From: Bradyrhizobium sp. NAS96.2
Lineage (GTDB): Bacteria; Pseudomonadota; Alphaproteobacteria; Rhizobiales; Xanthobacteraceae
Length of the DNA: 64,000 bases
Assembly (NCBI RefSeq): GCF_001908235.1
Contig: NZ_LGHK01000019.1
Span: forward strand, 1-64,000
Reading direction: 5' to 3'
Part shown: one piece after another, positions 13,286 through 18,320 of the stretch
How positions within the stretch are numbered: position 1 is the stretch's first letter
Layout of the letters: every line of letters begins with the position of its first letter
Position numbers and translations under genes: made by a program
Notes under the pieces: generated by a model
Database searches by the model: none
Told to the model about the DNA's origin: nothing
What the model saw: the letters and a program-made list of their open reading frames with translations, nothing else

Positions 13286-13888
13286 TCATACCGTGCCTCC
13301 CATCCGCAGGTCGCGCGCTTCGATGCCGAGCGGCAGATGGGTCGCGGCGACGATCAGGCCGCCGCTGGCCAGATGGTCGCGCATCAGGGCGACGAACAGC
13401 GCCTGTCCGGCCGTATCGAGCGCCGATGTCGGTTCGTCCAGCAGCCAGACCGGCCGCCGCACCGAGAGCAGGCGCGCGATCGAGAGGCGGCGGCGCTGGC
13501 CCGCGGAGAGGTAGGCCGCCGGCAGATGCGCGGCGTGGTCGAGCCCCACGGCGGCAAGGCACCGGCCGGCATCCTCGGTCTTGCCGCCGAGGAATTCCCG
13601 CCAGAAGGAAAGATTTTCCGCGACGTTGAGCGCCGGCTTCAGGGCATCGCGGTGGCCGAGATAGTGGGCCTGCTCGGGCAGGCTGAGCTCGGCGTCGCCG
13701 CCTTCGAGCGCGACCGTCCCCTCGGCTGGAACCAGGAGCCCGGCGAGCACCCGCAGCAACGAGGTCTTGCCCGCGCCGTTAGGGCCGGTGACGGCGAGCG
13801 CCTCGCCGGCCGTAGCCGAAACGTCGAGGCCGGAAAACACCTCGCGTCCGCCGCGCACGCATTTCAGATTTCGTCCCGAGAGCCGCAT
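13286..13888 (-). CDS. ccmA: Haem exporter ATP-binding protein CcmA
   Basis: The ATPase of the CcmAB complex. The 200-residue protein has Walker [10 protein letters not shown] (residues 35-43), the ABC signature [14 protein letters not shown], Walker [13 protein letters not shown] and a switch His in AATHLPL. The ATG at 13888 ([14 protein letters not shown]) is chosen as the family start; the frame continues 25 codons upstream without similarity. It is the first gene of the minus-strand ccm cluster and is divergent from acnA, sharing a 242-base promoter region. Confidence 0.95.
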
Positions 13889-13984
13889 GGTTCGTCTTGT
13901 CACAGCCCTCTGAAATCTTTCGCTACCGCGTGAGAATTTTTGGGTCGCGCGATGCCGGCGCACGCTTGTCGGTGTGGCGGTGCC

Positions 13985-14001
13985 TCTAGAAAGGTTCTAT
14001 A
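13985..14001 (+). promoter_or_regulatory. Iron control element (Irr-type ICE) upstream of acnA
   Basis: TCTAGAA-AGG-TTCTATA matches the ICE consensus TTTAGAA-N3-TTCTAAA at 12 of 14 defined positions. It lies about 130 bases before the acnA ATG and 97 bases before the ccmA start on the other strand. In Bradyrhizobium and relatives ICE motifs bind Irr, a haem-responsive Fur-family regulator that controls iron-dependent genes. Aconitase is an iron-sulfur enzyme, so repression under iron limitation would make sense. The match is seen in the sequence; Irr binding is inference. Confidence 0.6.
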
Positions 14002-14130
14002 AGCCCGGAACTTGATGCAGCACACACAATCGGCGGCCGCAACCCACCCCCCGGGCCATCCCTCGGCCAGTGTCGTTCGCCGGTGTTTAGTTACCCTTGC
14101 CGGGTATAACTGAGAATTGGGATTCCTCGT

Positions 14131-17815: not shown

Positions 17816-18320
17816 CGCGTTGCTGCGCGTTAGTCGCGTCGTTGAGCCGCACGCAGCTGCCGTGCAGCCTTTGCGTGGCGGCGAACATGCATTCAGAAAT
17901 CTGCTGCAATGAAAGCGCCGAGGCTTGCGAGCCTCATCGCGCTGGTCGAGCAGGCCCCAAAAACAAAAAGGACCAACTTTCGTTGGCCCAGTGTTGGGAT
18001 TTAACTCCCCTGCGAACAGGCCCGATCCCGACGGCCCCGGGGGGCTGGGGGCTGAGGAATCCGGAACCGAAAGGACCGGGCCAACGCAGGATTTCCTTTT
18101 CGCAGGGCAGCGGGGCGGGCGATGGGCGGAAGTGGGGCAGCAATATGATTCCGCTAACGTTCCCGTGAATCTTTTGGCGCGGCCCTGATTCAATCCCGCG
18201 GGGCCTAATTCGTGTTTGGGCGGCTTAATTCAAGCGGCCAGCCCCCTGGCTCTCGATTCCCGATCTGAACCAAGTACCGCAGCCGGTATTGTTTCAGCGG
18301 GAATTACTGAGGAGGAAGCC
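17816..18320. other. 505-base intergenic region, structured, no gene assigned
   Basis: Short open frames exist on both strands but look like GC-rich noise. The region shows local self-complementarity: CCAAC-tttc-GTTGG (17973-17986), and CCCTGCGAA (18008-18016) against TTCGCAGGG (18099-18107). Between these are G/C-rich tracts (about 18030-18055). An A-rich stretch (CCCCAAAAACAAAAAGG) begins near 17955. It could encode a structured RNA or be a decayed repeat; nothing decides between these. The last bases before 18321 carry the Shine-Dalgarno of the next gene. Confidence 0.4.

Follow-up and report, generated by a model that had tools for sequence, protein, structure and literature searches.

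A probable Irr operator overlapping the predicted acnA promoter in a Bradyrhizobium genome

Results

The acnA-ccmA locus

The window, by which we mean the whole 64,000-nucleotide (64 kb) stretch of DNA that was analysed, comes from an 8.9-Mb Bradyrhizobium genome close to B. tropiciagri, and its AcnA is 100% identical to the AcnA of Bradyrhizobium tropiciagri SEMIA 6148 (L090). Aconitate hydratase and the haem exporter ATP-binding protein CcmA are divergent neighbours (Table 1). Both gene calls score over their NCBIfam cut-offs and agree with the first-pass annotation, which had placed an iron control element (ICE, or Irr box) between the two genes. The palindrome in question reads TCTAGAAAGGTTCTATA and has two mismatches to the ICE consensus TTTAGAA-N3-TTCTAAA, one in each half, exactly as that annotation had described it. 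The box lies 129 nt from the ATG of acnA and 96 nt from that of ccmA.

Table 1. Features of the acnA-ccmA region, with positions given in the window
Feature	Position	Strand	Basis
ccmA, haem exporter ATP-binding protein, 200 aa, ATG start, divergent neighbour of acnA	13286-13888	-	TIGR01189 over cut-off (NCBIfam)
TGTGGCGG, conserved block ~18 nt before the proposed -10; non-consensus -35 region or activator site	13973-13980	+	alignment
ICE / Irr-box-like palindrome TCTAGAA-AGG-TTCTATA, proposed Irr operator	13985-14001	+	motif search, matrix, conservation
CTATAA, proposed acnA -10 box overlapping the right ICE half-site	13997-14002	+	TATA-type hexamer counts and alignment, from which the -10 assignment is drawn
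ACTTGATGCAG, highly conserved block directly after the predicted acnA transcription start	14010-14020	+	alignment
acnA, aconitate hydratase, 906 aa	14131-16851	+	TIGR01341 over cut-off (NCBIfam)

The 5' region of acnA, the conserved block downstream of the predicted start included, had no Rfam match at the gathering threshold. A structured leader RNA in this region was considered and rejected, as 187 of 200 shuffles were at least as stable (fold z 1.45). The sole Rfam match in the window at the gathering threshold is the Bradyrhizobiaceae sRNA BjrC174 (RF02355, 179.8 bits), which lies on the reverse strand at 17966-18169.

Match to the ICE consensus and to other Irr targets

Taken alone, the consensus match is weak evidence. 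The box is the only place in the window with three or fewer mismatches, with 0.18 expected, and 18 of 100 shuffles also held at least one such match. Genome-wide, matching at this threshold is uninformative because a reversed control pattern gives more sites (74) than the ICE itself (56), with no enrichment, and genome-wide consensus counts were rejected as proof on this ground. When eight relatives were pooled and up to two mismatches allowed, the excess was modest (75 ICE sites versus 41 control sites). Simulating the 400 bp before acnA with a first-order Markov model gave a site with at most two mismatches in 1 of 3000 sequences, and one with at most three in 6 of 3000.

Because consensus counting is insufficient genome-wide, we built a matrix from other genes. 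Among 30 mbfA and 30 bfr family loci, 24 and 21, respectively, have a site with at most three mismatches in the 150 bp upstream, and these 45 sites gave a symmetric matrix from whose training acnA was excluded; as the sites were picked by mismatches to the consensus, the matrix is not independent of it. The acnA box ranks first in the window with 17.7 bits, the next place reaching 9.6; a second-order simulation of 4 Mb gave no score as high as 17.7. The training sites span 17.1 to 33.2 bits (median 26.2), which puts the acnA box close to their lower end; in this genome the boxes of bfr and mbfA reach 28.5 and 30.3 bits. The half-sites TCTAGAA and GTTAGAA are found in bfr/mbfA boxes too, where TTTGGAA and ATTGGAA are also present as the right halves TTCCAAA and TTCCAAT. 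The Markov simulations, the bfr/mbfA matrix and the position-conserved occurrence in relatives described below are what lift the acnA box above chance.

Conservation upstream of acnA

The first-pass annotation had proposed looking for the motif upstream of acnA in relatives, and there it is widespread. Across the named relatives (80 loci examined, 79 counted, with L031 left out for its 9 nt of upstream DNA), a site with at most two mismatches occupies the same place in 52 of 79 loci and one with at most three in 63 of 79, all 63 of them 104-146 nt before the acnA ATG. These counts include the upstream box of L094, despite a break in its acnA frame that gives it a false long branch in the AcnA tree; this gene, from Bradyrhizobium lablabi CCBAU 23086, spans 2720 bases, which reflects a frame break or an assembly error. 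The dominant Bradyrhizobium forms of the box are TCTAGAAAG(A/G)TTCTATA and GTTAGAAAGCTTCTATA.

At the level of the genus, the matrix gives at least 13 bits in 30 of 30 genomes scored, a set made up of the best 30 among 59 matching genomes and including our own. Beyond the genus, 13 bits are reached in 20 of 65 genomes of the family (0.25 expected from shuffles), in 5 of 40 at the order level (0.10 expected) and in 0 of 35 sampled at the class level (0.55 expected), where the expectations are somewhat too low since shuffling destroys promoters. The upstream regions sampled come from 65 of the 140 matching family genomes (7 of these 140 being of the genus), from 40 of 85 at the order level and from 35 of 117 at the class level. 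They were chosen either by hand, so as to sample across genera, or according to rank; within the class-level 35, L197 belongs to the same order, and L200 and L203 are short. In distant genomes the query match, in place of a start codon, defined where acnA begins, so distances there are approximate.

The form of the box varies among relatives. Several sister genera have TNTGGAA, ACTGGAA or a similar left half, and their boxes score ~12-17 bits, under all 45 training sites (lowest 17.1), with the Rhodopseudomonas type at 13.3 and the Afipia type at 14.6, and other sister genera retain TCTAGAA (20.6). Three g43/g45 genomes, together with L088 and L091, have lost the inner G and C of the half-sites (TTTAAAAAGATTATAAA and similar). 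The g43/g45 form still scores 14.5-20.7 bits because its outer arms are good, and canonical boxes occur elsewhere in all three g43/g45 genomes. In other families of the order, L247, L232 and L235 carry the ICE-like acnA boxes TTTAGAAATGATCTATA, CTTAGAAATTCTCTATA and TTTGGAAAGAGTCTATA, again ending in CTATA.

Overlap with the predicted acnA promoter

An alignment of 29 upstream regions revealed elements that follow each other in a near-fixed order in most of them: the upstream conserved block of Table 1, the box, CTATAA at the right end of the box, CCGGA, and the downstream conserved block. A TATA-type hexamer lies 30-220 nt before acnA in 62 of 65 family loci, versus 9.5% of Markov sequences. 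More distant members lack the palindrome and yet retain CTATA or TTATAA, often with GAAAG or AAAAG in front. Because the hexamer is kept in relatives that lack the palindrome, the CTATAA overlapping the right half-site is most likely the acnA -10 box. If the right half doubles as a promoter element in this way, part of its conservation would be owed to the promoter and not to Irr. A promoter scan of the region recognised no consensus sigma-70 promoter, and the acnA -35 is non-consensus. In 1996 Thony-Meyer and Kunzler reportedly mapped the acnA start of B. japonicum beside cycV and described a -10 of typical form but no -35. The promoter motif described for B. japonicum is TTG-N(16-18)-TATA (PMC4842269).

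Three loci (L063, L065 and L095) show a second TTCTATA(A) ~10 nt downstream of the box, and their first right half reads TTCTAAT, CTCTAAA and TTCTAAA, respectively. They are adjacent in the AcnA tree, so this insertion perhaps reflects one event. It would fit a half-site freed from its -10 role, a case in which -10 and operator may have become separated naturally. The box of L065 is weak (5.1 bits).

Irr and its predicted targets in the genome

Three Fur-family proteins are encoded in the genome (L016, L017 and L018). L017 is Irr: it scores over the cut-offs of NF045677 and NF045678 (NCBIfam) and has both GCPWHD and HHH, the haem-binding motifs of Irr (PMC11442138). The genome has 11 sites with at most two mismatches, five of which precede bfr (TIGR00754), mbfA (NF045676), a TonB-receptor plug domain gene, a PepSY_TM gene and acnA. 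Three ICE-like sites, two of them overlapping, are packed into 52 bp before a TonB-receptor plug gene (L006 1466-1517; C188:8369-8420).

Work on B. japonicum provides the regulatory context. There, Irr builds up at low iron and is degraded with iron present; acnA, sdhC, leuC and sufA are repressed by Irr, and their mRNAs are raised 2-3 fold where Irr is almost lacking; and bfr and mbfA bind Irr over 200-fold tighter than other Irr promoters (PMC4902296). acnA is also listed among the genes for which a putative Irr site is given in B. japonicum; of the predicted sites, those of blr7895 and bfr are reported to bind Irr in vitro, and binding at acnA is not mentioned in the consulted part of that paper (PMC3413700). 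The first-pass annotation, which named acnA as Irr-controlled in Bradyrhizobium, was right on this point (PMC4902296, PMC3413700). Placement of an Irr box at the start site is in keeping with repression (PMC3413700). In Rhodobacter sphaeroides, a more distant alphaproteobacterium, acnA, leuC, lguL and fumC had no significant iron response according to the consulted part of PMC3413700.

Discussion

Is the palindrome an Irr operator of acnA? We consider that it is, with a probability of about 0.8, and that Irr bound there would repress acnA at low iron. The fit to a matrix derived from other Irr targets, the conservation in relatives, the presence of Irr in the genome and the repression reported for B. 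japonicum lend good support to this part of the first-pass interpretation. Against it weigh the missing genome-wide enrichment of the consensus at up to three mismatches, the weaker boxes of several sister genera, the loss of the inner G and C in some relatives, the absence of boxes of at least 13 bits among the 35 class-level genomes, and the lack of a significant acnA iron response in R. sphaeroides. An unlikely alternative is that the conserved block is the acnA promoter and nothing else, with CTATAA as -10 and a favoured GAAAG upstream, and that the likeness to the ICE is a by-product without Irr binding. Such a reading would explain why the TATA-type hexamer persists across the family, often after GAAAG or AAAAG, at loci without the palindrome. 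However, the left half-site falls outside the -10 and still has 6 of 7 ICE positions: 7-mers scoring at least as well as TCTAGAA occur at a frequency of 0.00002 in the window (both strands) and of 0.0021 in the intergenic region, figures that include the site itself. CTATA occurs 14 times on the two strands of the window, and the acnA copy alone is accompanied by a good half-site at the ICE offset, scoring 10.5 where the next best scores 0.5. This rare ICE likeness outside the -10 argues that the palindrome is more than a -10 box. The B. japonicum-labelled genomes L038 and L053 hold the equally ICE-like GTTAGAAAGCTTCTATA, and in B. japonicum itself acnA is reported to be repressed by Irr (PMC4902296). 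It is highly improbable that another Fur-family protein is the real ligand. The genome does encode two candidates, L016 (closest to Fur) and L018 (closest to Zur), both below curated cut-offs, but the box fits a matrix made from bfr and mbfA promoters only, which are Irr targets in B. japonicum, as acnA is reported to be (PMC4902296).

The first-pass annotation went further and suggested that a single element could couple aconitase to cytochrome c maturation. This would have one Irr site act in both directions, repressing acnA and either repressing or activating ccmA, and so linking the TCA cycle to cytochrome c maturation. The arrangement of the genes speaks for it: ccmA lies within ~900 bp upstream of acnA in 62 of 65 family loci, the two genes are divergent in 35 of 40 order loci, and the box is 73-197 nt from ccmA, a distance at which an upstream factor could act. 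However, the gene pair is kept in many genomes without the box (30 of 35 divergent order loci score under 13 bits), and the promoter scan recognised none for ccmA. The spacing between box and ccmA is looser (sd 19) than that between box and acnA (104-152 nt, sd 8), as calculated from 74 of 80 rows (79 loci plus the window), with L044 and L061 left out for an unmapped ccmA start and L065, L092, L093 and L097 for a weak box. In the second ccm operon of the same genome, nothing before ccmI (PF23914 match) scores above 5.3 bits, this best place lying 42 nt before the start. A separate ICE-like site of 11.8 bits occurs at the end of the reading frames following ccmF (L346 1585-1601; C368:53584-53600).

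In the R. sphaeroides irr mutant, ccmD falls to 0.53-fold at normal iron and is at 1.00 at low iron (PMC3413700), which might be taken to favour control of ccm genes by Irr. The drop is non-specific, because 44.6% of reliably measured genes are also at or below 0.57-fold in the mutant at normal iron; only mbfA and ccpA are given predicted Irr boxes there in the consulted part of PMC3413700. Irr control of ccmA is not reported in the consulted parts of PMC11442138 and PMC9409073. The lack of a recognised ccmA promoter, the looser spacing and the absence of a recognisable ICE before ccmI thus leave the coupling of acnA and ccmA through one Irr site as possible but unsupported, and we regard it as improbable. 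Of the first-pass interpretation, the acnA operator is well supported and the coupling is a guess. A combined version, in which the operator is a low-affinity compromise between -10 and Irr half-site and bound Irr also tunes ccmA, seems to us decidedly improbable.

How might an Irr operator of acnA work? When iron and haem are low, Irr would be stable and would bind the box. The box would cover the acnA -10 region, where TTCTATA shares CTATA(A), and because it sits over the -10, RNA polymerase would be excluded and less of the iron-sulphur enzyme made. With haem available, Irr would be lost and acnA expressed. We propose that the right half is off-consensus (TTCTATA, an imperfect TTCTAAA) because it must also serve as the -10 box, at the price of an operator weaker than the bfr and mbfA ones. 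Less iron would then be needed to turn on acnA than to turn on the storage and export genes. The mismatched base of the right half is the very one that CTATAA requires, which suggests such a compromise of promoter and operator and would put acnA among the Irr promoters that the literature describes as weaker.

The probable acnA operator would belong to an established regulon and occupies an orthologous location; Irr control of the gene is already known in a close relative, which makes the finding largely known. It supports the known iron-sparing circuit in another Bradyrhizobium and offers a concrete anatomy for it, in the form of a half-site that appears to double as the -10 box. It also yields a prediction as to why the iron level at which acnA responds would differ from that of bfr and mbfA.

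Comparison with the acnA member of the B. japonicum Irr regulon shows the same orthologous gene, 7-3-7 palindrome and genus (PMC4902296, PMC3413700). The species differs, and the left half is TCTAGAA here and GTTAGAA in the B. japonicum-labelled genomes L038 and L053. The overlap with the -10 is spelled out here, and the primary B. japonicum papers may already note it. The bfr and mbfA ICEs, which are high-affinity Irr operators, share the motif class and the genome (TTTAGAAGCATTCTAAA and ATTAGAATTATTCTAAT) and differ in their higher matrix scores (28.5 and 30.3 bits, as against 17.7 for the acnA box). Other regulators, such as Fur with RyhB, also lower aconitase when iron is short, as a form of iron sparing. 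The proposed Irr circuit is alike in that aconitase would go down at low iron, and differs in its regulator and operator.
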